A stretch of 64,000 nt of DNA. It comes from Halocatena salina (lineage in GTDB: Archaea > Halobacteriota > Halobacteria > Halobacteriales > Haloarculaceae). The notes under the pieces are model-generated. The model was not told the origin of the DNA. It did not search any database and was given only the letters and a program-made list of their open reading frames with translations. Of this stretch, positions 42,907 through 55,475 are shown in pieces. The translations under genes were made by a program, and so were the position numbers. Where the stretch lies: contig NZ_CP096020.1 in the NCBI RefSeq assembly GCF_023115355.1, positions 434,001-498,000 on the forward strand, read 5' to 3'. Position 1 is the stretch's first letter, and each line of letters begins with the position of its first letter.

Positions 42907-43944
42907 TCACTCTTCGCTGTCGTATGGATCACCGAGGGAAGCGGGCACGCGGGTCGAACCCCACATGGTGAGTACGACGATTACAGCAAGATACGGAAAC
43001 AGGTTGACCAACCGGTTGGGAAGATCGATTCCGATCGTTTGGAACTGGATCTGAAGCATATCCAGCCCACCGAACAACAGCGCCGCCACAGCGGCTCCGA
43101 TCGGATTGTAGTTGCCAAACAGGTACGCAACGATCCCGATCCAGCCTCGTCCATTGACCATCGTGTCGCCCGTCCCAGTGAACGAACCGGCGTGTGCGAG
43201 GAGAACAGCACCACCCAGCCCCGCCATCACACCCGAGAAGATAACGGCTGCGTACCGGACGCGCCCCACGCTGACGCCCGCCGTGTCTAGGGCCTCGGGA
43301 TTCTCACCGGCCGCCTGAATCCAATAGCCGTAGCGGGTGTGATAGAGGATTGCCCACGCGACGATCGTCACGAAAGCGGTGAGGAGCACCAACGGGGAGA
43401 TGTCAAACAGCAGTGCTCCGACGATCGGAAGCTCCGAGAGTCCCGGAACCGTGAGGTTCTCGACGCTCACGAGTCCGGGACTGTTCTGACTGTCCCAGAG
43501 GAGCACAGCTACGAAGGGGCCGAAGCCGAGACCGAGAAACCATACCGCTAGGCCCGCCACGATCTGATCCGCCTTGTACCGGATCACCAACACGGCAAAG
43601 AGAACGGCAGCGACCGAGACGATCGCTACCGATCCGAGGATGGCCATCCAGAGAGTGTTCTGTCCGGCCGTCTCACCTCCGATGAGCCACGTGAGCGCCG
43701 CCGTGGTGACCGCACCGAAGATCATGAATCCTTCGACCCCGATGTTGAACACACCGCTTTTTTCGGCGTACAGCCCACCGATCGCCGTGAGTGCGATCGG
43801 GGCCGCCGCCTGAAGCGATCGGCTGAGAAATCCCACTGTGAGCAGCTCAGCGAGCGGAAGATCCAGCCAGCCGATCAGTGCCACGCCAACAAAACCGATT
43901 GCAGCACCGATCTCAGTCCGACCCCAGTTCCTGACAGCACTCAC
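42907..43944 (-). CDS. BMP-type ABC importer permease 2
   Basis: The 345-residue permease of the branched-chain/ribose fold has about ten helices, the LTAIGGLYAEKSGVFNIGVEGFMIFGA motif and AAGENPEALDTAGVSVGRVRYAAVIFSGVMAGLGGAVL, typical of nucleoside- and simple-sugar-type permeases (YufQ/BmpC-like). Its ATG overlaps the previous gene's stop by four bases. Last gene of a four-gene operon. Confidence 0.88.
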   Translation of the reverse strand: MSAVRNWGRTEIGAAIGFVGVALIGWLDLPLAELLTVGFLSRSLQAAAPIALTAIGGLYAEKSGVFNIGVEGFMIFGAVTTAALTWLIGGETAGQNTLWMAILGSVAIVSVAAVLFAVLVIRYKADQIVAGLAVWFLGLGFGPFVAVLLWDSQNSPGLVSVENLTVPGLSELPIVGALLFDISPLVLLTAFVTIVAWAILYHTRYGYWIQAAGENPEALDTAGVSVGRVRYAAVIFSGVMAGLGGAVLLAHAGSFTGTGDTMVNGRGWIGIVAYLFGNYNPIGAAVAALLFGGLDMLQIQFQTIGIDLPNRLVNLFPYLAVIVVLTMWGSTRVPASLGDPYDSEE

Positions 43945-45074
43945 TGCTCGTCACCTCCGAGTCCGATCCGCTTTGCGGCCATTCGAAACAGCTCCGGGGC
44001 GGAGACGAACAGAACGACGAGCCCAACGACGCCATCGATCAGTTGCGCCGGAACGTTGCTACTAATACCGATATACGAGCCAGCAGAATCGAGGCTTCCG
44101 AACAACAGCCCGGCTGGGATGACTCCGAGCGGATTGTTTGCTGCTAACAGGCTGACGGCGATCGCATCGTAGCCATACGACCCGATCCCGGCCGGATCGC
44201 TGTAGTACCCCTGAATCATGACTGTGAAGACCGCGCCTGCAAGCCCTGCGACCATCCCGGAAAGGGTCATCGTCACGACGACCATCCGTTTGGCATCGAC
44301 ACCGGCATACGCCGCGGCGGAGGCCTGCTGTCCACTGGTGACCATCTCGTAACCGAAGCTCGTCCGGCGCACGAGAACGGCGATCAGTACGGTGACTGTG
44401 AGCGCAACGACGAGTCCAACGATCGAAAAGTCGGGTGAACTGTAGATGAGTTGGGGCAACTCGACGTACTCCGGGAGCCGCTCGGTGTTTGGTGCGGACT
44501 GATCGGCTCCACGAAACGGGCCCTCAACGAGCCATCCAACGATCCCGATCGCGATGAAGTTCAGCATGATCGTCGTAACGATCTCGTTTGCGCCACCGTA
44601 CGCTTTCAAGACACCGGGCACTGCTGCGTACGCACCACCGGCGACGATGGCCGCGAGAGCACCTACGAGCAAGAGCACGACACCGCCGATCGGTCCCTCC
44701 GGAAGCACTGGAGCCGTCTGGAGGATGGCGAGCACCGTCGCAAACCCGCCGACGATGAACTGACCATGGACACCGATATTGAACACGCCAGCCCGAAACG
44801 CGATCGAAACTGAAACGCCAGTCAGGACGAACAGCGTCGTGAACATGAGCGTCCGGGCAATGGCAGCTTCGCTGCCGACGGCTCCATCGAGCAGGTTTCG
44901 GCTGAATACGGCAGGATCGTAACCAGCCCCAGCGACGATAACCATCCCGATCAACAGGGCCAACACCGTCGCAACTGCCGAGATCACCACCCGTTCGAGG
45001 ACGGAGACGGTTAGTATCGTTGTGGCAGCGCGATCGAAAACGGCCCGAACGGAGTCCGAATCAGGACGGTTCAC
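43941..45074 (-). CDS. BMP-type ABC importer permease 1
   Basis: The 377-residue permease (YufP-like) has the motif GVSVSIAFRAGVFNIGVHGQFIVGG and GQQASAAAYAGVDAKRMVVVTMTLSGMVAGLAGAV. It overlaps both neighbours by four bases, so translation is coupled. It makes the membrane channel with the permease at 42907. Confidence 0.88.
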   Translation of the reverse strand: MNRPDSDSVRAVFDRAATTILTVSVLERVVISAVATVLALLIGMVIVAGAGYDPAVFSRNLLDGAVGSEAAIARTLMFTTLFVLTGVSVSIAFRAGVFNIGVHGQFIVGGFATVLAILQTAPVLPEGPIGGVVLLLVGALAAIVAGGAYAAVPGVLKAYGGANEIVTTIMLNFIAIGIVGWLVEGPFRGADQSAPNTERLPEYVELPQLIYSSPDFSIVGLVVALTVTVLIAVLVRRTSFGYEMVTSGQQASAAAYAGVDAKRMVVVTMTLSGMVAGLAGAVFTVMIQGYYSDPAGIGSYGYDAIAVSLLAANNPLGVIPAGLLFGSLDSAGSYIGISSNVPAQLIDGVVGLVVLFVSAPELFRMAAKRIGLGGDEQ

Positions 45075-46732
45075 GTCCGATCACCGTTGTTATCACCGGT
45101 ATCCGATCGATCACTGTCGTTCCGACCGGACGTTCCACGCTCAGCGCCCACTAAGTCTGGGGTGCTCTCGGCCCCCTGCCGTTCTGTTTCGTCGTGGTAG
45201 CCGGGATCATGACCAGCCATCAAGAGACCGAGCTGCGCTTCGGTGATGGTGTCCGGATCGACGATATCGATGAACGCACCGTCGTACATCACCGCGATAC
45301 GATCGGCGAGCTGTTGGATCTCTTCGAGCTTCGAGGAAACCACCACGATCCCGAGTCCCTCGTTACGCAACCGTATCAGTCGGTTGTGAATGAATTCGGT
45401 CGACCCGATGTCGACCCCCCGCGTCGGATGCATGGCGATCACGAGGGCCGGATCGCGCTCGATCTCTCGTCCAACGATGAACTTCTGTTGGTTGCCTCCG
45501 GACAGAGACGCCGCATCGATGTCGACATTCGACGGCTGAACGTCGTACTCTGCGACGATCTCCTCGGCGTGGTCCCGAACGGTTCCCCAATCGATGACCC
45601 CGTTGGTAACGTAGTTATCGTTCGTCTGATTGCCGAGTAACGCGTTGCGAACCAAGCTGTCGGCTTGGACTAAGCCCACAGAGTGGCGATCTTCGGGAAT
45701 GTAGGCGATTCCGGATTCGATACGCCGACGCCGGCTCATACCAGTGATCTCTTCGCCCTCGAAACGGACAGAGCCCGCCGTCACGGCGCGTAACCCAACG
45801 ATCCCCTCGATCAGCTCGGACTGTCCGTTACCTTGGACACCCGCAATACCGAAGATCTCACCCGCTCGAACGGTGAGATCCACTCCATGGACCCGCTCGC
45901 GGTCTCGATCACCGTCGACTCGTACGTCCTTGATTTCGAGGAGGGCGTCACCGGGAGAGGTTTCACGGGACGTCCGGTCGAACAACACGTCTCGTCCGAC
46001 CATCATGCGCGCGAGCTCCTGCTCGGTGGTCCGGGCGGCGGCAACGGTGCCGACGCTGGTCCCATCCCGAAGGACGGTGATCCGATCGGCGACCGAGAGC
46101 GCCTCGTCGAGTTTGTGCGTGATAAAGACCAGTGAACAGCCGGAGTCAGTCAGTTCGGTCATCATATCGAGGAGCTGGTCGACCTCCGGTGGTGTTAGGA
46201 CCGCTGTCGGTTCATCGAAAACGAGGACGGTCGCGCCTCGATAGAGGGTCTTGATGATCTCGACTCGCTGGCGGACACCCAGACCGAGAGCACGGATCGG
46301 AGTGTCGAGGTGCTGATCGATATCGAGTCCGTAGCGCGAACAGATCGCTTCGATGTCCTCGCGGGCGGTCGATTCGTCGACAAGTCCATTCGATGTCGGT
46401 TCGTGGCCCAAAATGATGTTTTGGAGGACAGTCATCGGTTCGACCAGCTGGAAGTGCTGGTGGATCATCCCGATGCCAGCGTCCATCGCATCCCGTGGGG
46501 CACCGAAATCACGAACATCACCGTCGACGTAGATCGTTCCCTCGTTTTGGTCGTACAGTCCGTACAGTACATTCATGAGCGTCGTCTTCCCCGATCCGTT
46601 TTCCCCCAGTAAGGCGTGAACCGTGCCCTTCCGGAGCGTGAAATCGACGTCGTCGTTGGCGACGACGTCACCGAAGCGTTTGGTGATCCCAGCAAGACGG
46701 ACCACTGGGGTGGACGGACGATCCTTATTCAT
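45071..46732 (-). CDS. BMP-type ABC importer ATPase with two nucleotide-binding domains
   Basis: The 553-residue protein has two ABC domains in the RbsA/YufO style. Domain one has Walker A GENGSGKT, signature [11 protein letters not shown] and [10 protein letters not shown]. Domain two has the degenerate Walker A region GVQGNGQSE, as normal for this class, then [16 protein letters not shown] and the [12 protein letters not shown] Walker B region. It energises uptake by the two permeases; nucleosides or a simple sugar are the usual cargo. Confidence 0.9.
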
Positions 46733-46761
46733 GATGTATACGGTGTTCCATATCTATCGGA

Positions 46762-47892
46762 TCAGTCACACCCGGTTGCACCACAAGGAACGGTGATATC
46801 GCCGTCGAGGATTCCCTGTTTGGCTCGTTGCATGTTTTGGTCGACGGCGGCCGGGAGAGACCCTTCGAACGCTTGGCCGATCACACAGTCGATGGCTTCC
46901 TCCGCGAGCGACAAGGTGTTGTTACCGGCGATGCTTTCGAAGTCGTCTTCCGCAACTGCCGTCGCGGCCGTTTGTGTCCCCTCATCGATGTATTTGACGG
47001 CGGATCCGAGAACAACGTCCTGGAAGTCGGGAAGCGCCACGGACTGATCGGAGTCGACGCCGATGGCGTACCGACCATCGGCTTGCGCGGCCTCGAAGAC
47101 GCCACGACCCGCAGCTGCAGCAGCGTGATACACGATATCGGCACCAGCATCGTACTGTGAGCTGGCGATATCGGCCGCCGTATCCGTGTCGGTGTAGTTG
47201 CCGATGTAACCGACATTGACCTCCACGTCGTTGGTGACCCACTCGGCTCCGGCGACGTAGGACCGCTCGTACGCGTTGATAAGCGATTCATCGACGCCAC
47301 CGACGAACCCGATTTGTGCGCTTTCGGGAACCGTTTCGCCACCGCCGTCGGAGAAGCCCTCTGTCGTCATCGTGCCCGCGAGAACGCCCGCGAGATAGGA
47401 CATCTGATGATTGGCCCAGATGTAGCCCGCAACGTTTGCCTCGTCGACGTGGTCATTGATGAGCATCCAATACTGATCGGGATAGTCCGTGGCGTTTTGG
47501 GTCAGTGCCTCGGTGTGATTGTACGAAACCAGTACGATGAGATCGTACTCACCGCTTTGAGCCAGTTCCGATTGGGTCGACTGGTATTGAGCCTGTTGGG
47601 TTTCTTCGACCCGGTTGAGTTCGATGTCGTGCTCCTCTTGAGCGTTCTCGATCCCCTTGAGCGCGAGATCGTTGAACGCGTTGTCGTCGAAACCAGCAGG
47701 ACTCGATACGATCGCAACGTTCGTCGTCTCGTCTCCACCACCGTTATCATCCGAGCTGCCGCCGAGACACCCAGCAAGCCCTAGGCCCCCGACGAGAGCG
47801 GCTCCCGTCGTGAGAAACCGACGTCGATCAACACTGCCCGCTCGGTGAGATACGTGCTCACGCTTCGTATCCGAATTCGAGTGGCCATTCAT
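46762..47892 (-). CDS. BMP-family substrate-binding lipoprotein
   Basis: The protein has about 376 residues from ATG 47892; the longer in-frame start overlaps the TATA-like TTTATATG and is rejected. It has a Tat lipoprotein signal (DRRRFLTTGAALVGG) and lipobox LAGC with Cys42. The body is of the Bmp/PnrA type: SPAGFDDNAFNDLALKGIENAQEEHDIE, DLIVLVSYNHTEAL, NVAGYIWANHQMSYLAGVLAG, and YAIGVDSDQS. PnrA-like proteins bind purine nucleosides, but related transporters take sugars. Confidence 0.88.
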   Translation of the reverse strand: MNGHSNSDTKREHVSHRAGSVDRRRFLTTGAALVGGLGLAGCLGGSSDDNGGGDETTNVAIVSSPAGFDDNAFNDLALKGIENAQEEHDIELNRVEETQQAQYQSTQSELAQSGEYDLIVLVSYNHTEALTQNATDYPDQYWMLINDHVDEANVAGYIWANHQMSYLAGVLAGTMTTEGFSDGGGETVPESAQIGFVGGVDESLINAYERSYVAGAEWVTNDVEVNVGYIGNYTDTDTAADIASSQYDAGADIVYHAAAAAGRGVFEAAQADGRYAIGVDSDQSVALPDFQDVVLGSAVKYIDEGTQTAATAVAEDDFESIAGNNTLSLAEEAIDCVIGQAFEGSLPAAVDQNMQRAKQGILDGDITVPCGATGCD

Positions 47893-48007
47893 ATCATTCG
47901 AACAATTGTTATTGGCCCACATATAAATATTTCATGGAGGGATATATGACACACCTCCCGTTCGGCGCGCCCTGCGTAGTGGCGCATGTTCCGAGACCGG
48001 CCCACAC

Positions 48008-49063
48008 TCAGCAGTTCCCACCGCCCGTTCGGTCAGTGCCGTCGAGAGTAGGATCGTACGCTGGCGGACCCATTTCCGAGAGCTCGATTCGGCCCGGTTT
48101 TTTCGTTCCATCCAGAAGCGAGAGAACGCCCGCACCGGTTGCCACGGAACCCGCTGGATCGGTCGGCTCGTCGTGTTCGTAGATCAGATACTCGACGTTC
48201 GCCTTTGTGCGAGCGACAGCCGAGACGGCCCGCATGTCGACAGCTCCCTCACCGATCTCGGCGAACTCCCCGTCGACCATATCCTTCATGTGGACGAGAT
48301 GAGTTCGGTCGCTGTACGTCTCGATGACTTCGACAGGATCGAACCCGGCAGTATGAACCCATCCGACATCGATTTCGAAGCCGATACCGTCGTTCAGCGA
48401 CTCATCGAGCACCGCAAGCGGCGTTCTATCGTCGGCAAGACGCTGGAATTCGCCGTCGTGGTTGTGATAACTCAACTGCACGTCCGATCCGAGCTGCTCG
48501 TCGACCGCATTCATCCGCTCTGCAAGCGTCTCGGTCTTTTCGATCGTATCGATCCGAGAAGGATCGATGTACGGAACCACGAGATTATCGACGCCGATCT
48601 GTGTGTACGTCTCGACGGTCGTCTCCAACTCCGTCTCCAATGCCTCGAGACCAACGTGGGCACTGCCCCCCACCAGTCCCGTCCGTTCGAGTGTATCGAC
48701 GATCTCATCCGCGCTCGCCTCACCGAGACCGGCAAATTCGACGGCGTCATAGCCGGGCCCACCGTTGTTGTCGACGGCACCGACGCGTCGAATGAGGTCG
48801 AGTACCGTGTCAGGGAGGTTCCGAAGCGTGTAAAACTGGATCGCAGTCGAAACACCCCGTCTGGGAGGCGTGTCGGCGTCGGGAGTCCTTTCCGTATCGT
48901 TCGTTCGTGCCGCTGTGGTTCCAACGACGCTGCTCGAAAGCCCAAGCGCGGCGATTCCCTGAAGTACCGTCCGTCGCTTCGTCGAGAAATGACGACTGAC
49001 TGTGCTACTGACGCCATCTGCGGAACTGTCTTCGTTCATGGCTGTTTCGACGTCGTGCGCCAT
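48008..49063 (-). CDS. Tat-exported sugar-phosphate-isomerase-like TIM barrel
   Basis: The protein has about 351 residues from ATG 49063 (ATG 49039 is an alternative; longer forms read an AT-rich promoter). The Tat signal is KRRTVLQGIAALGLSSSVVGTTAAR, without a lipobox Cys. The rest is an AP-endonuclease-2/xylose-isomerase-type barrel: AIQFYTLRNLPDTVLDLIRRV, YHNHDGEFQ, GFEIDVGWVHTAG, HLVHMKDM. Export of such a barrel is seen in some haloarchaeal and bacterial carbohydrate loci; the reaction is unknown. It lies downstream of the ebo-like genes. Confidence 0.83.
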   Translation of the reverse strand: MAHDVETAMNEDSSADGVSSTVSRHFSTKRRTVLQGIAALGLSSSVVGTTAARTNDTERTPDADTPPRRGVSTAIQFYTLRNLPDTVLDLIRRVGAVDNNGGPGYDAVEFAGLGEASADEIVDTLERTGLVGGSAHVGLEALETELETTVETYTQIGVDNLVVPYIDPSRIDTIEKTETLAERMNAVDEQLGSDVQLSYHNHDGEFQRLADDRTPLAVLDESLNDGIGFEIDVGWVHTAGFDPVEVIETYSDRTHLVHMKDMVDGEFAEIGEGAVDMRAVSAVARTKANVEYLIYEHDEPTDPAGSVATGAGVLSLLDGTKKPGRIELSEMGPPAYDPTLDGTDRTGGGNC

Positions 49064-49173
49064 CGGACCGACCCGATGGAACAGTCCACCCCAAACCACA
49101 CTGTATATTCTAATAAATTTTTTCACTCATATAAAGTTTATGTAGAGTTGATTTCGTTGCGTAACGTCTCTGA

Positions 49174-50025
49174 TCAGGCCGTGTATCGTTCGAGCGCGTC
49201 GAGCGCTCGTCGGGCTGCCCGATCGGGGGCATCGGGGTACGTATACAACTCCAGCGTCGCAAAACCGTCGTAACCGATGTCATCGAGTGCTCGGAAGATC
49301 GCTTCGAAGTTCAGATCGCCGTCGCCAGGGATGCGATGGTAGTGTTTGCCCCTGCGACCACCAACGATGTCTTCGATGTGGACGCCCGTGATGTGTCCGG
49401 CACACTGACGGATGCTCTCGGCAGGGTCCTCACCGTAGACGGCCGCGTGGCCGACATCGAGATTCACACCCAGCGCGTCACGGTTAACCACATCGAGGAG
49501 CTCCAGAACCTCCTCAGTACACTCGATGAGCAACTCCGGTTCGAACTCGATTCCAACGTCGACTCCCACGGAGTCGGCGTGATCGAGAATATCGTGCAGC
49601 GAGTTCATTAACTGTTCTCGCGCTTGCTCGGGGGGATTCCCCGGTTCGGGACGGCCCGTAGCGACACAGACGGCAGGGGCACCGACCGCCCCTGCCAGAT
49701 CGATCGCTCGTTTCGTGTAGGTGACTCGCCGCGATCGTTCCGTTTCGCTATCAGAGATGATCGTCGGTGCGAAAAACGAGGTATCCGGCGCGTCGTCGTA
49801 GTACCCCATGGCGGTGTTGGCGTTGACGTTCGAAACCGAGAGACCGGTCGTTTCGATCGTTTCCTGAAGTCGTGTCCGATCGTCCTCGTCGAACTCTGGC
49901 AGGAACGCATGAGGCGAATCGGCCAACAGCTCGACGCCGTCGTATCCATGGTCTGCTATGCGTCGAACGGCGTCCGTGAGTGTAAAGCGGGTGTAGGCGT
50001 TCGTCGAGAACGCAAGTCGAACCAT
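49174..50025 (-). CDS. Sugar phosphate isomerase/epimerase-type TIM barrel (ebo-like cluster)
   Basis: The 283-residue cytoplasmic barrel opens MVRLAFSTNAYTRFTLTDAVRRIADHGYDGVELLADSPH, with metal-ligand-like residues in GIEFEPELLIE, GVNLDVGHAAVYG, GVHIEDIVGGRRGKHYHRIPGDGDLNF and FATLELYTYPD. It parallels the relative at 51004 (about 30-40% alike by eye) and sits directly after the UbiA gene in the same direction, so it is probably in the same operon. Ebo clusters carry such a barrel (EboE). Confidence 0.85.
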   Translation of the reverse strand: MVRLAFSTNAYTRFTLTDAVRRIADHGYDGVELLADSPHAFLPEFDEDDRTRLQETIETTGLSVSNVNANTAMGYYDDAPDTSFFAPTIISDSETERSRRVTYTKRAIDLAGAVGAPAVCVATGRPEPGNPPEQAREQLMNSLHDILDHADSVGVDVGIEFEPELLIECTEEVLELLDVVNRDALGVNLDVGHAAVYGEDPAESIRQCAGHITGVHIEDIVGGRRGKHYHRIPGDGDLNFEAIFRALDDIGYDGFATLELYTYPDAPDRAARRALDALERYTA

Positions 50026-50067
50026 ACTGGTATGTATTTCTCACATACCAAGAATCTTACCCTGGTC

Positions 50068-50979
50068 TTAGCTGACACTGAAGACGCGGGCGAACCCCAT
50101 CGCAGGAACGACGAACGCCGCTGCCAGGAGTGCTAACACGGGATCGATCGTTGCAGCGAACGCACTCTCCAGTACGGGCAGTCCGAGTACACACGCACCG
50201 ACAGCTGCTCCGATGGTTTCCGGTGTCGGTGTCTCGACGGCTGATCGGAGCGCTCGCCCCGTCCAGCCCAGAAAGCAAGCGAGCAGGATCACTGCCAGGA
50301 GGACCTTGCCGGCTCGTGGCGATCGAACGAGGAGGAGACCACCGGTCCCGAGCACAGCGACGACGACACCGCCGATCGCAGGGACGACGGCGGTTCGGTC
50401 GCTCGTTCCGGTCTCATGTGCCGCGGTCCACGTGACGCCTGTGATGAAGGCAGTGACGATGATCGGGACAGCGAGGGCCCATCTGGGGAGTAAAACGGGC
50501 GAAAGCGCGGCCGTTACCCCGAGACAAACGTTGAGTCCCCTCATCGCTCCCATGGCGAGACACCCGACAGCCGACCCCGTCAGTACACCATCGTAGAGCA
50601 AAACGGTGAGTGCGAGTAGCCCCGAGATCACCCCAGCCGCCGTTCCGGCGGCGACGACGGCGGTCACCACGCCAGCAGCGAGGAATCCGAGACCCAACGC
50701 GAGCGCCCGAGGACGGGCCACCTCGCCCGAGGGAATGGGCCGTTCGGGTCGCTCGTGAGCGTCGTCGCTCGCGTCGAAGTAGTCGTTCAGCGTTGTTCCA
50801 GCGGCGTACAACAGCATAGACGCGACAGCGAGTCCGAACACGGTGCTACTCGTAACGGTCCCACCGACACCGACTGCAAGTGCCACACCAGCCACGACAT
50901 CCGGCGGAGCCGTAAAGAGGTTGGGCAGCCGAACCAGCGTCGCATACGCCCGTGTGCGTCGGATCGCGGTCCCGATCAT
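50068..50979 (-). CDS. UbiA-family prenyltransferase (EboC-like)
   Basis: The 303-residue integral membrane protein has eight to nine helices. The first aspartate-rich prenyl-diphosphate motif is NDYFDASDD, followed by HERPERPIPSGEV, the classic UbiA loop. The second motif region is less clear (LLYDGVLTGSAVG). UbiA enzymes attach an isoprenoid chain to an acceptor in the membrane. Helix pattern and gene neighbours match EboC of the ebo cluster. In haloarchaea, quinone and lipid UbiA enzymes are also common, but those genes have other neighbours. Confidence 0.85.
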   Translation of the reverse strand: MIGTAIRRTRAYATLVRLPNLFTAPPDVVAGVALAVGVGGTVTSSTVFGLAVASMLLYAAGTTLNDYFDASDDAHERPERPIPSGEVARPRALALGLGFLAAGVVTAVVAAGTAAGVISGLLALTVLLYDGVLTGSAVGCLAMGAMRGLNVCLGVTAALSPVLLPRWALAVPIIVTAFITGVTWTAAHETGTSDRTAVVPAIGGVVVAVLGTGGLLLVRSPRAGKVLLAVILLACFLGWTGRALRSAVETPTPETIGAAVGACVLGLPVLESAFAATIDPVLALLAAAFVVPAMGFARVFSVS

Positions 50980-51003
50980 TCACCTTCGAATCGTGTAGGC
51001 ACG

Positions 51004-51879
51004 TCAGACCCACCCGTGGTCTTCGAGATACTCCATCGCACCGCGTGCGGTCTCGGGGGCTGTCGCCTCGTACGGATACAGTTCGACGGTGACGAACCCA
51101 TCGTACCCGCTGTCGGAGAGGGCACCGAGAAAGCCATCGATGTCCATCGCACCCTCCCCGAGCTGGGTGTGGTCGTGCGTCCGATCGGCCGGGATGTCTT
51201 CGAGATGGTAGTGACAGGTGTACTCGGCGAGCACGTCGATCAACGCAACGGGATCCTCTCCCGAGGCGTAAAAGTGTCCGGCGTCGAAGTTACAGCCGAC
51301 GCGCGGTGAATCGATCCGGTCAACGAGATCGAGAAACTGTTCTGACGTTTCGACGAGAAGCTCCGGCTCCGGTTCGATCAGGACATCGATACCGACGGTT
51401 TCGGCCGTCGCTGCGACGGTCTGTAGCCCGTCGACGAACTCTTCGACCGCCCGTTCGTCGGACTTGTCTACGGGTACCGGTCCACCGGGCTGGATCGAGA
51501 TCCGGGAAGCACCGAGGGCGGCCGCCGTCTCCAGGGCGGCTTGGGTGTGTTCGATGCGGGCACGGCGGTCCGTCGCGTCGGGTTCGATGAACGAAGGATG
51601 GTGAAACGCCGCCGTCTCATGGGGATAATCGGCCTGATGGCTCGTCTCGCTGCGCTCGATAGCACTGAGCATGAACGCGTTGCAGTTGCTGATGGCGAGA
51701 TCGTGCGCATCGAGTAGCTTCCGGACCTGACGAACGTCCGCTCGGTCCGCGTCACCGGGGTACAGGTGTGGCGTGTCGAGAAGGATCTCGATCCCGTCGT
51801 AGCCAGCGTCCGCGAGCGTTTCGATGGTTGCTTCGAGGCTGTGCCCTCGGAATGCGTTCGTCGAAAATCCAAATTGCAT
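51004..51879 (-). CDS. Sugar phosphate isomerase/epimerase-type TIM barrel (ebo-like cluster)
   Basis: The 291-residue barrel opens MQFGFSTNAFRGHSLEATIETLADAGYDGIEILLDTPH, with DVLIEPEPELLVE, GCNFDAGHFYASG, YHLEDIPADRTHDHTQLGEGAMD and FVTVELYPYE. The Glu/Asp/His/Glu pattern fits a metal site. It begins two bases after the TatD-type stop, so the two are one transcript. It is a paralogue of the gene at 49174. Confidence 0.87.
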   Translation of the reverse strand: MQFGFSTNAFRGHSLEATIETLADAGYDGIEILLDTPHLYPGDADRADVRQVRKLLDAHDLAISNCNAFMLSAIERSETSHQADYPHETAAFHHPSFIEPDATDRRARIEHTQAALETAAALGASRISIQPGGPVPVDKSDERAVEEFVDGLQTVAATAETVGIDVLIEPEPELLVETSEQFLDLVDRIDSPRVGCNFDAGHFYASGEDPVALIDVLAEYTCHYHLEDIPADRTHDHTQLGEGAMDIDGFLGALSDSGYDGFVTVELYPYEATAPETARGAMEYLEDHGWV

Positions 51880-51881
51880 GG

Positions 51882-52682
51882 TTATCGTTCGTACTCGAAG
51901 TTCGGGGATTGATCGAAGAACTCGTAGGGATTGTCGAAAACGACCGTCCGAACCGCTTCGCGGTTCCAGCCCCGATCAAGCATCGCATCACGAGCGTTCG
52001 GAACGGCCAGCGGATCCGACGGATCCCAGTCGGCGGCGCTGTTGAGGAGCATACGGTCGGTGCCGTACTCCTCCAGAAGGTCGATAGCGAGATCGGTTTC
52101 GATCTTGCCTGGATAGAGCGTAAAGCCCAACCAGCAGTCGGTTCGGGCGGAGATGTCGACCGTTTCTTCGGTGTTATGGTCGATGACGATGCGCTCTTGA
52201 GTGACGCCTTCATCCTCGATCACCTCCACGATGCGCTCGGTCCCCGATGGCTTGTTCTCGTGGGGTGTGTGAACGATAACTGGGAGTTCGTGCGCTTCAG
52301 CGATTCGCAACTGTTTCCGAAAGGCGTACTCTTCGGCGTCGGTCTGTTGATCGTAGCCGATTTCACCGACGCCGACGACGGGATCCCGGTCCAGATAGTC
52401 AGGGAGCCGCTCGAGTACCGTCTCGGCCATCTCACGGTAGTTCGCTTCCTTTGGTTCGAGACCGATGGTAACGTAGTGGTCCATCCCGGCCGTTCGCTCG
52501 GCCCGAGCGGTCTCGTGTTCGATGATCTGTTCGAAGTAGTCGAAAAACGAACCCGCGTTGTGTTTGTCCTGACCGCTCCAAAAGGCCGGTTCGATGCAGC
52601 ATTCGATCCCAGCCCGTCGCGCTCGTTTGTAATCGTCACTCGATCGAGAAACCATATGCATATGTGGGTCGATGACTCGCAT
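51882..52682 (-). CDS. TatD-family metal-dependent hydrolase (EboB-like)
   Basis: The 266-residue amidohydrolase-fold protein has His7 and His9 in IDPHMHM, Glu in VGVGEIGYD, His in VIVHTPHEN, His in IVIDHNTEE and a late Asp region LLNSAADWDPSDP, the full metal set of TatD/PHP-like hydrolases. It is the first gene of the minus-strand half of the ebo-like cluster. The corresponding bacterial gene is eboB. The substrate is unknown. Confidence 0.87.
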   Translation of the reverse strand: MRVIDPHMHMVSRSSDDYKRARRAGIECCIEPAFWSGQDKHNAGSFFDYFEQIIEHETARAERTAGMDHYVTIGLEPKEANYREMAETVLERLPDYLDRDPVVGVGEIGYDQQTDAEEYAFRKQLRIAEAHELPVIVHTPHENKPSGTERIVEVIEDEGVTQERIVIDHNTEETVDISARTDCWLGFTLYPGKIETDLAIDLLEEYGTDRMLLNSAADWDPSDPLAVPNARDAMLDRGWNREAVRTVVFDNPYEFFDQSPNFEYER

Positions 52683-52930
52683 GGCCTGTTCATGACCTTT
52701 GATTCCATGATAATATATGTTTTGATAATTATTGATTATTATATATTTATGATTTCTATAATAATTTTATCTATATTCCAATGACTAATTTCTTTAATAA
52801 TAGAAAAACTTAATAGGCAACAGTATATCTTTTGTATCAAAATGGACAGTCGGTTTTGGTTTAGAGGCAGGGAACGAAACACGAATCGGTCCCGATTCGT
52901 GCTGGTCCCAAAACACCGCTGGAGGAACGA
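52683..52930. other. AT-rich divergent promoter region of the ebo-like cluster
   Basis: Bases 52710-52835 are strikingly AT-rich and contain TATA-like elements for both directions. The right end carries a 22-bp inverted repeat (52880-52901) before the gene at 52931. No gene seen. Confidence 0.6.
52880..52901. promoter_or_regulatory. Perfect 10-base-arm inverted repeat upstream of the Ino1-like gene
   Basis: CACGAATCGG then TC then CCGATTCGTG, 29 bases before the ATG at 52931 and about 60 bases after the TATA-like elements. It could be an operator or a hairpin in the mRNA leader. A GGAGG sequence follows it, directly before the start codon. Confidence 0.6.
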
Positions 52931-54127
52931 ATGAGGCGGACGGGCGTTTGGCTTCTCGGAGCGCACGGGAACGTTGCGACGACAGCGATGGTGGGTGCGC
53001 GCGCGATCGCTGCTGAGGAGGTGGGAACGGGGGGATTGGTTACGGCTCAGGACCCGTGTCATCGCCTGGATCTTCCCCCGATCGAGGGGTTCGTTTTCGG
53101 TGGCCACGACGTTTCCGCGACGACCGTTAGCTCGACAGCGCGTATGCTCTCGGAACGAGCCACTATTCCGCCGGAGATCGTCAAAGCGGTGGACGAAGAT
53201 CTCGAACGGATCGAGGAGCGTATCGAGACTGGAACGGCGATCAACTGTGGGCGAGCGATCGAAGATCGCGTGGAAAGAGCATTCTCCGAACGGAACGTTT
53301 CTGACACCGTCGCCCGCCTTCGAGAGGAATATCGCGCGTTCGTCACCGAACAGAACGTGGATCGACTCGTCGTGGTAAACGTTTCCTCGACCGAGCCGCC
53401 GCTGTCCGATCCGGGACGGTACGACACCGTGAGTAGCGTAGAACGGGCCGTCGCTGACGACGATAGAGATCTTCCCGCGAGTAGTTTGTACGCGTACGCT
53501 GCCCTCCTCGATGGCTATCCGTACATCAACTTCACGCCGAGCACGGGGGCTTCCCTCGGTGGACTCAAAGCGTTGGCTCGCCGAAAAAACGTTCCTCACA
53601 TGGGACGAGACGGCAAAACAGGTGAAACGCTCCTGAAATCCGCACTCGCACCGATGTTTGCCCGACGAAATCTTCGCGTTCGGTCGTGGGAAGGCCACAA
53701 TATCCTCGGCAACGCAGACGGTCGCGTGCTCGAAGACGAGGCGAACGAGGCTGGGAAGTTGGCTAGTAAAAGCGGGGTGCTCGACGGCATTCTCGACGAG
53801 GAGTTTCACAATCGTGTGCGGATCGACTACACGCCGCCACTCGGCGACTGGAAAACCGCGTGGGACGACATCCGATTCAGTGGGTTCCTCGATACCCCGA
53901 TGAAGATGCAGTTCACATGGGAAGGGTCGGATTCCATTCTCGCCGCACCGCTCGTCCTCGATCTCATCAGATTGATCGTACACGCCGACGAACACGGGGA
54001 AGGGGGTCTCCAACCACAGTTGGCGTCCTTCTTCAAATCCCCGCTTGGCGTCGACGAACATGACCTTTCACGACAGTTCGGCATGCTCACTAACTACGTA
54101 AACCGCTATGAGGGAATCGATGACTGA
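52931..54127 (+). CDS. Myo-inositol-1-phosphate-synthase-like protein (Ino1 family)
   Basis: The 398-residue protein has a Rossmann start GVWLLGAHGNVATTAMVGA, and Ino1 motifs NVSSTEPP (150-157), YINFTPS (198-204), GRDGKTGET (225-233) with the catalytic lysine, NILGNADG (257-264) and the C-terminal core LDTPMKMQFTWEG. Ino1 converts glucose-6-phosphate to inositol-1-phosphate using NAD; this copy may act on another hexose phosphate. Its position matches the dehydroquinate-synthase-like eboD of bacterial clusters, another cyclising enzyme. The start has a GGAGG sequence nearby. Confidence 0.87.
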   Translation: MRRTGVWLLGAHGNVATTAMVGARAIAAEEVGTGGLVTAQDPCHRLDLPPIEGFVFGGHDVSATTVSSTARMLSERATIPPEIVKAVDEDLERIEERIETGTAINCGRAIEDRVERAFSERNVSDTVARLREEYRAFVTEQNVDRLVVVNVSSTEPPLSDPGRYDTVSSVERAVADDDRDLPASSLYAYAALLDGYPYINFTPSTGASLGGLKALARRKNVPHMGRDGKTGETLLKSALAPMFARRNLRVRSWEGHNILGNADGRVLEDEANEAGKLASKSGVLDGILDEEFHNRVRIDYTPPLGDWKTAWDDIRFSGFLDTPMKMQFTWEGSDSILAAPLVLDLIRLIVHADEHGEGGLQPQLASFFKSPLGVDEHDLSRQFGMLTNYVNRYEGIDD

Positions 54128-55475
54128 TCACGCCACGCGGGTTATCGTCCTCGACGTCGTCGGTCTTCAGCCCGATCACGTGACGGAGGCGACCGCACCA
54201 AACCTCACAGGCGTTCTCGAAGGCGTAAACGCGTTGAAACCTCCGTTTCCAGCGCTGACCGTTCCCGTCCAAACGACGCTTACGACGGGACAGTCTCCCG
54301 GCGAGCACGGCGACGTCTCGAGCGGTGAATACGACCGAGAGACCGACGAAGCGGCGTTCTGGGAGCGTGACCGAGCAGATCGACACCGCCTGTGGGAGAC
54401 GGCACGGACAGCCGGGACGACGACGGGAGCACTGTTTTTCCAACACCTCATCGGGACGGATGCGGACATCGCAGTCACGCCGTCGCCGATCGAGGACGAG
54501 GACAACAACCTTTTAGAGATGGATTGTTGGACGAATCCCGACGATTTGTATGAGACGTTGCGAGCGGAGTACGGACATTTCCCCTTGCATCGATACTGGG
54601 GTCCCGCGGCGGACGAACACAGCAGCAGATGGATCCTCGACGCCGCGAGCGAAGCGATCGACCGCGTCGATCCGGATCTGCTATGGGTGTACGTTCCACA
54701 CCTCGACTACGCGGGACTCCGACACGGCCCGGGAGAGGAGTTGCAAGCGGCGGTCAGCACGATCGACGACTGCCTTGGGGAGTTTCTCGACGTGCTTCGG
54801 GCGAGCAAGCGATGGAACGAAACGGTCGTGAATGTCGTGAGCGAGTACGGATTTCACGACGTCGATACTCCCGTATTCCCGAACCGTGCACTCCGTGAGA
54901 ACGGGCTGTTGGCCGTCACGGACGATGGGAAGGGGACCGCAGTAGATGTTCCCAACTCGGCGGCGTTTGCGATGGTCGACCATCAAGTGGCGCACGTCTA
55001 CGTCGATGACCGTTCCCCCGCCGTCCGCCGAACGCTCGAATCGCTTGACGGCGTCGAGACAGTGCTCGGCAAGGTGGGACAGGCCGAACGAAACATCGAT
55101 CATCCAAACACGGGCGATTTCGTTCTCGTCGCAGAGCCAGATGCGTGGTTTCAGTACTACTGGTGGGACGACCCCGAGGACGCACCCCCGTATGCGACTG
55201 ATATGGACATCCACGCGAAGCCGGGGTTCGATCCGTGTGAGCTGTTCGGGGGCACGGAAGGACTCGTCTCGCTCGATCCGACGAAGGTCGGTGGCTCTCA
55301 CGGTCGAAGCGACGTGTACGGCGTGTACGGTCTCGGAGGACCCATGGCACCCGAAACGTCCGCCGACGGAGTCGTGGACGCACGAGCCGTCGCGCCGACG
55401 ATCACGGAACTGTTGGGCATCACCGACTCCATACCGATGTCGTTCAGCCACCCTCCAGTGACAGAATGTGAGTGA
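54120..55475 (+). CDS. Nucleotide-pyrophosphatase/phosphodiesterase, alkaline phosphatase superfamily (EboF-like)
   Basis: The protein has about 451 residues from ATG 54120, overlapping the Ino1-like stop by eight bases. It has the metal Asp12 in VIVLDVVGL, the nucleophile-region FPALTVPVQTTLTTGQSPGEHG (Thr47 likely), the LDYAGLRHGPG metal site, the SEYGFHD site and the final His in GGSHGRSD. This is the NPP/type I phosphodiesterase pattern. No signal peptide, so cytoplasmic. The corresponding bacterial gene is eboF. The substrate is unknown. Confidence 0.85.
   Translation: MTDHATRVIVLDVVGLQPDHVTEATAPNLTGVLEGVNALKPPFPALTVPVQTTLTTGQSPGEHGDVSSGEYDRETDEAAFWERDRADRHRLWETARTAGTTTGALFFQHLIGTDADIAVTPSPIEDEDNNLLEMDCWTNPDDLYETLRAEYGHFPLHRYWGPAADEHSSRWILDAASEAIDRVDPDLLWVYVPHLDYAGLRHGPGEELQAAVSTIDDCLGEFLDVLRASKRWNETVVNVVSEYGFHDVDTPVFPNRALRENGLLAVTDDGKGTAVDVPNSAAFAMVDHQVAHVYVDDRSPAVRRTLESLDGVETVLGKVGQAERNIDHPNTGDFVLVAEPDAWFQYYWWDDPEDAPPYATDMDIHAKPGFDPCELFGGTEGLVSLDPTKVGGSHGRSDVYGVYGLGGPMAPETSADGVVDARAVAPTITELLGITDSIPMSFSHPPVTECE

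Follow-up and report, generated by a model that had tools for sequence, protein, structure and literature searches.

A co-inherited haloarchaeal gene cluster combines EboB, EboC and EboF relatives with an Ino1-family protein in the EboD position

The ebo genes occur in many bacterial phyla and in some algal plastids. An isoprenoid-cyclitol was proposed as the product of EboD and EboC; sedoheptulose 7-phosphate was named as the likely substrate of EboD, and a prenyl-phosphate was raised as a possible substrate of EboC (PMC5133447). This published guess rests mainly on the likeness of EboD to sugar phosphate cyclases. Nostoc ebo mutants make and accumulate the scytonemin monomer, but do not export it to the periplasm, and for this reason ebo products were proposed to help small molecules across the membrane (PMC6282210). 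Here, we describe a gene cluster of Halocatena salina that lies within a 64,000-nt stretch (the window; coordinates count from its first letter) of a 532 kb contig, in a genome of 4.01 Mb and five contigs. Relatives of EboB, EboC and EboF stand together in it, and an Ino1 protein (myo-inositol-1-phosphate synthase family) takes the position of EboD. We put the probability at roughly 0.6 that this is a haloarchaeal ebo-type cluster of an Ino1 class, encoding a pathway that joins an inositol-type cyclitol to a prenyl chain.

The conserved unit spans positions 49174–55475 and comprises six core genes in two divergent groups. On the minus strand lie, in the order TIM2–EboC–TIM1–EboB, two xylose-isomerase-like TIM-barrel proteins (TIM2, 49174–50025, Pfam PF01261, 160.6 bits; TIM1, 51004–51879, PF01261, 154.8 bits), a UbiA-superfamily membrane protein (EboC, 50068–50979, Pfam UbiA, 59.2 bits) and a TatD-family hydrolase (EboB, 51882–52682, Pfam TatD, 65.8 bits); counted from TatD, successive genes are spaced by 2, 24 and 42 bases. 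Ino1 (52931–54127, Pfam matches of 152.4 and 114.7 bits) and an EboF-like NPP-type phosphodiesterase (54108–55475, PF01663, 166.2 bits) follow on the plus strand, the start of the latter overlapping the end of Ino1 by 20 bases. Between EboB and Ino1, an AT-rich region of 248 bases (52683–52930) presumably holds the promoters of both groups. The names that a preliminary description had given to these TatD, UbiA, TIM, Ino1 and NPP genes were borne out by a Pfam search of the window proteins, with matches well above the cut-offs.

To map the cluster beyond the window, we surveyed 293 genomes of the same order. Ino1 was present in 40 of them (59–68% identity, near full length, with no class of weaker matches) and EboB in 39; 37 genomes had both and five only one, an association with a Fisher p of 5.6e-41, not corrected for kinship between genomes. 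About one in eight sampled haloarchaea thus carries the cluster. EboC tracked EboB almost perfectly, being found in 38 of 42 genomes examined; three of the four genomes without it have Ino1 alone, and the fourth is 72% complete, its contig stopping at the TatD gene. All six genes were present in 29 of 54 haloarchaeal loci, and the retrieved neighbourhoods repeated the order TIM2-UbiA-TIM1-TatD / Ino1-NPP, orientation included, in genomes of at least six families. These data show that the six genes form a co-inherited unit, and the archaeal neighbourhood that the preliminary description had presupposed does recur. Its presence is patchy: within the window's own genus, one member has both Ino1 and EboB and another has neither. 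Within the phylum sample, true EboB was confined to the window's order. Copies on plasmids of Halobaculum salinum, Natronococcus sp. CG52 and Haladaptatus pallidirubidus are consistent with horizontal spread.

With respect to the EboD position, inspection of 49 loci carrying both EboB and EboC revealed 30 with EboD only, seven with Ino1 only, none with both and 12 with neither in the stretch read; loci were read to about 10 kb on either side, the bacterial sample was uneven, and ‘never both’ holds for this sample. Clusters with EboD and without Ino1 came from Deinococcus, Gloeothece, Mycetohabitans, Azospirillum, Roseivivax, Aureibacter, Ketogulonicigenium and Salipiger. EboD was not found in any of the 54 haloarchaeal loci, and the dehydroquinate synthase family (PF01761) was found in none of 42 haloarchaeal genomes that carry either the cluster or its Ino1 (controls positive in 11 of 14 genomes). 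The bacterial Ino1-type clusters, here plasmid-collection records, include a Streptomyces plasmid cluster in the order Ino1–SCO3242-family prenyltransferase–sugar phosphate isomerase (SPI)–EboA–TatD–EboE–NPP. Nonomuraea, Embleya and Gemmatirosa (Gemmatimonadota) have this set or most of it, and EboD is absent from the Ino1-type loci read in all four genera. The exchange of Ino1 for EboD is therefore real: EboD is replaced, not accompanied. It also occurs in bacteria and so is not peculiar to archaea; the substitution that the preliminary description had proposed stood. In Streptomyces camelliae (L080), a ScyD/ScyE-family gene precedes Ino1.

That two unrelated families of ring-forming enzymes occupy one slot points to a cyclitol intermediate. 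The supply of precursors would fit such an exchange. Transaldolase was found in one of 29 cluster-bearing genomes, and the non-oxidative pentose phosphate route is generally missing in haloarchaea (PMC3102087); sedoheptulose 7-phosphate is therefore probably scarce in these organisms, whereas Ino1 uses glucose 6-phosphate.

The window Ino1 retains the residues aligned to K274, K306, D225 and D332 of the Archaeoglobus fulgidus enzyme, which we take to be catalytic there. Also kept are those aligned to K278, K367 and N255, fixed by point mutants of the A. fulgidus structure 1u1i (3qvw, 3qvx, 3qw2), to which the window protein aligns over its full length (E 1.5e-79). The alignment shows the NAD fold and the catalytic Lys, Asp and Asn residues of a working inositol-phosphate synthase to be preserved. 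In the Ino1 tree, the haloarchaeal proteins form one clade (100/100) that is sister to the actinobacterial ebo Ino1 proteins (96/91), with Gemmatirosa Ino1 on a long branch outside this group. Given that the tree joins the two, a common origin of the haloarchaeal cluster and the actinobacterial type is probable, with transfer possible in either direction. An assignment to the archaeal phospholipid type of Ino1 was rejected, as the tree sets the protein apart from Ino1 of Archaeoglobus and the methanogens.

The retained A. fulgidus residues, together with the scarcity of other Ino1 genes in the genomes searched, could also be read as a sign that these genes serve to make the inositol phospholipid archaetidylinositol, a pathway of Archaeoglobus and the methanogens. 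Against this speak the position of haloarchaeal Ino1 outside their clade, the lack of a further conserved gene in the block that would fit a CDP-alcohol transferase, and the fact that such a pathway leaves no place for EboB, EboC or the TIM proteins. We regard it as very improbable.

Ino1 genes also turned up in other settings. Paralogous or lone copies lie beside glycosyltransferase-like genes with no ebo neighbours (L038, L041, L046, L047, L061), where they possibly provide inositol for surface glycans. Plasmids of Methylobacterium bullatum (L085, 9001–15927) and Hymenobacter volaticus (L086, 8932–15558) carry Ino1 with an SPI-type TIM protein and no other ebo genes, the pair being accompanied in Hymenobacter volaticus by YcaO, two Gfo/Idh and PIG-L genes; such pairs may belong to another pathway with the same first two steps.

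The remaining assignments rest on models, identities and trees. The window TatD protein is 47% identical to Streptomyces EboB and 41–47% identical to EboB of both bacterial cluster types, and it bears the EboB signature along with the invariant metal-site residues. An EboB model separated EboB (E 1e-134) from the best ordinary archaeal TatD (4e-54). Among NCBIfam models, EboC matched the window UbiA protein best (178 bits; cut-off 250), as compared to 164 bits for the SCO3242 family (cut-off 260), 61 bits for DGGGP synthase and scores far below EboC for the others. A maximum-likelihood tree split the EboC clade from the host's remaining six UbiA proteins at 97/98 and united the haloarchaeal EboC proteins in one clade (100/99) inside EboC diversity, with no firm branching order among the EboC subgroups. 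The other six host proteins include haem O synthase, DGGGP synthase (L002), MenA, a PRK12875-type prenyltransferase and a DPPR-synthase-like protein. A role of the window protein as a quinone, haem O, carotenoid or lipid enzyme was rejected, since it falls in a clade apart from theirs and the host already encodes such enzymes; the grouping with quinone or archaeal-lipid enzymes that would have spoken against the preliminary description was thus not observed. These comparisons show by homology that the UbiA protein is EboC and the TatD protein EboB, in line with the likenesses first proposed.

The NPP protein is 44% identical over 385 residues to the NPP of the Streptomyces cluster, and the EboF family model picks up NPP in haloarchaeal loci; its proposed likeness to EboF is upheld by model and identity. 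No signal peptide was evident in its sequence. Searches with the EboA–F profiles, as the preliminary description had suggested, recovered EboB, EboC (below its cut-off) and EboF. They did not recover EboD, EboE or EboA, the absence of the last having gone unmentioned.

EboA and EboE were not found in the 54 haloarchaeal loci. Nor was EboA detected in 29 genomes, a search that had no positive control, although the EboA model does find EboA of bacterial loci. The TIM proteins had been taken for EboE, a reading that we rejected: against a cut-off of 250, the NCBIfam EboE model (EboE being ~380 aa) gave 20.6 bits for TIM1 and 27 bits for TIM2, and EboE forms a separate clade in the tree. TIM2, which is 62–76% identical across haloarchaeal loci, groups with the TIM protein of a gammaproteobacterial ebo cluster (L151), whereas TIM1 sits, with weak support, beside the actinobacterial clusters' sugar phosphate isomerase (Shimodaira–Hasegawa-like approximate likelihood ratio test, 80). 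Both resemble IolE, IolI and epimerases, and in both the metal ligands follow the pattern of epimerase-type TIM barrels (in TIM2, E/D/H/E by alignment). The gammaproteobacterial cluster itself (~6.7–13 kb of its locus) combines EboA, B, C, E and F with the TIM2-like gene and has neither EboD nor Ino1 in the stretch read; from its gene content, it may represent a third architecture or a loss.

From these sequence features we infer a pathway in which a cyclitol is prenylated or carried across the membrane, in agreement with what has been hypothesised for ebo before (PMC5133447, PMC6282210). Ino1 would convert glucose 6-phosphate to inositol phosphate by an NAD-using cyclisation, and TIM1 and TIM2, as metal enzymes like IolE, IolI and the epimerases, would change the stereochemistry of the ring or dehydrate it. 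EboC would then attach a prenyl chain to the cyclitol within the membrane. This role is suggested by its closeness to the archaeal DGGGP synthase, which prenylates a polyol phosphate: in the predicted EboC structure (mean predicted local distance difference test score 89), the nearest solved fold is that of DGGGP synthase 6m31, also nearest by sequence. EboB and the NPP-type EboF would hydrolyse phosphate esters or diesters before or after prenylation. The product would be an isoprenoid-cyclitol and may, by analogy with Nostoc, act as a membrane carrier or lipid as opposed to a free metabolite. Beyond this, we offer only tentatively, and with some doubt, the view that haloarchaea make a prenylated inositol-type membrane lipid or carrier not yet described, and that the two types of ebo cluster, despite their unrelated ring-forming enzymes, arrive at one class of compound.

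Several observations weigh against this pathway. The EboC-type enzymes assayed so far prenylated (farnesylated) quinolines in vitro, cyclitols not being reported (PMC9235831). The second Asp-rich motif, standard in prenyltransferases, is lost family-wide in EboC, with VTxxAxxE replacing KDxEDxxGD in 77 sequences; at this site, the window EboC reads VTWTAAHET, as compared to KDVEDIDGD in the DGGGP synthase of the host. Prenyl transfer by EboC is therefore not assured, and its donor may be unusual. EboA and EboE, both required for the Nostoc phenotype, are missing from the haloarchaeal block. In two genomes, G078 (L249) and G194 (L250/L095), EboB, EboC, EboF, TIM1 and TIM2 are present, yet Ino1 is missing from the whole genome and has left no trace at the locus. 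Conversely, three genomes have Ino1 without other cluster genes, and others have a second copy.

The lost motif lends itself to a different reading, namely that EboC and its partners form a transport complex for secondary metabolites or other metabolites, with Ino1 making a soluble ligand and EboC prenylating nothing. The Nostoc phenotype would fit, as every ebo mutant still produces the scytonemin monomer, which then does not reach the periplasm (PMC6282210). However, the first Asp-rich motif (NDxxDxxxD) is kept in 77 of 77 aligned EboC sequences, no gene for a transporter or a biosynthetic partner is conserved alongside the haloarchaeal block, and EboA, the proposed organiser of such a complex, was not found in the 54 loci or, by the search that had no positive control, in 29 genomes. 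Export without prenylation thus appears unlikely.

The genomes with only part of the set bear on another explanation, in which two functions often travel together: an EboB–EboC–TIM module, and an Ino1–NPP module supplying inositol or its phosphate for glycoconjugates or osmolytes. The unit is indeed modular, TatD-TIM1-UbiA-TIM2 lying separate from Ino1 or Ino1-NPP in some genomes (G036, G061, G077, G086, G093), and both the Ino1 genes that stand alone beside glycosyltransferase genes and the EboB–EboC modules of G078 and G194 would be expected. Yet even unlinked modules share a genome, as the tally of 37 genomes with both against five with one attests, and the same combination is repeated in Streptomyces, with Ino1 first in the operon, and occurs again in Gemmatirosa. 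We therefore deem two independent functions rather unlikely, and retain a single cyclitol–prenyl pathway as the preferred reading.

Outside the core six, little is conserved. Downstream of TIM2, a Tat-signal TIM-barrel protein (48008–49126, minus strand) has kin near the cluster in few loci; the preliminary description had counted it in, but its family occurs in only four loci and it was rejected as a core part. A BMP-type ABC importer (42910–47922, minus strand; two permeases, an ATPase and a Tat-signal binding protein; PF02608, 151 bits) was rejected likewise, being found in few loci. We class both as accessory because no other family recurs as widely as the core six: there is no conserved seventh gene, the next families appearing in only 14 and 11 of 46 sequences compared. 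In three genomes from different families (those of the window, L053 and L062), the importer is a direct neighbour of Ino1 or of the ebo block. In 14 loci from several genera (L039, L042, L050, L054, L055, L058, L059 and others), the surroundings of the cluster include exported proteins that resemble pyrroloquinoline quinone-dependent sugar dehydrogenases. About 30 bases upstream of the Ino1 start, at 52880–52901, the window has a perfect 10+2+10 palindrome, CACGAATCGG-TC-CCGATTCGTG; as a conserved operator it was rejected, being absent from the other loci compared.

The importer and further window genes—for a 2-hydroxyacid dehydrogenase, a ThuA protein and an enolase/mandelate-racemase-like protein—could suggest an operon for sugar or inositol catabolism, as could the resemblance of the TIM proteins to IolE, IolI and epimerases. 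But these neighbours are not conserved with the block and Ino1 is a biosynthetic enzyme; moreover, we know of no UbiA protein with a catabolic role. Catabolism is accordingly a reading to which we give hardly any credence. A biosynthetic pathway around a cyclitol, the reading we prefer, has consequences beyond this locus. That an unrelated cyclitol-phosphate synthase takes the place of EboD, and that the two never share a cluster in this sample, provides independent support for the cyclitol half of the published guess. It also narrows the substrate, since how Ino1 acts on glucose 6-phosphate is well understood. Haloarchaea being genetically tractable and their block lacking EboA and EboE, a six-gene version could be deleted or moved and its product searched for directly.

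No published account of an ebo cluster in archaea, or of an ebo cluster with Ino1, was found in a literature search that did not extend to subscription journals, in agreement with the preliminary description, which knew of no archaeal version. The archaeal cluster is a new architecture; the Ino1 class itself is found in bacteria as well, where it is seemingly undescribed, although the NCBI model for the SCO3242 family implies that annotators were already aware of the actinobacterial UbiA protein.

Among described enzymes, the A. fulgidus myo-inositol-1-phosphate synthase (1u1i) shares full-length homology and catalytic residues with the window Ino1; unlike that enzyme of phospholipid or osmolyte synthesis, the window protein belongs to a separate clade and sits in an ebo-type cluster. 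DGGGP synthase (6m31), an archaeal lipid prenyltransferase, is the closest solved relative of EboC in sequence and fold, from which EboC differs in lacking the second Asp-rich motif, and the host has a DGGGP synthase of its own. With the canonical EboA–F operon of cyanobacteria, Bacteroidota, Proteobacteria and eustigmatophyte plastids (PMC5133447), the haloarchaeal block shares the association of EboB, EboC and EboF relatives; it lacks EboA, EboD and EboE and instead has Ino1 and two TIM proteins. The EboG-type operon of Deinococcus and Herpetosiphon (PMC5133447) likewise has no EboA but, unlike the haloarchaeal block, has EboD and EboE and no Ino1. Closest is the actinobacterial SCO3242-type cluster (Streptomyces camelliae plasmid NZ_CP115301, Streptomyces sp. 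NBC_01362), which combines Ino1, an EboC-type UbiA, an SPI-type TIM protein, TatD and NPP, again without EboD, with identities to the window proteins of 45% (Ino1), 47% (TatD) and 44% (NPP). While the actinobacterial type has EboA, EboE and a single SPI, the haloarchaeal block lacks the former two, has two SPI-like TIM proteins and is divided into two divergent transcription units. Judged by gene content, the cluster is thus not a canonical ebo operon in the strict sense, as EboA, EboD and EboE were not found, nor is it of the actinobacterial type, which has EboA and EboE; in all likelihood, it works like a reduced Ino1-type ebo cluster.

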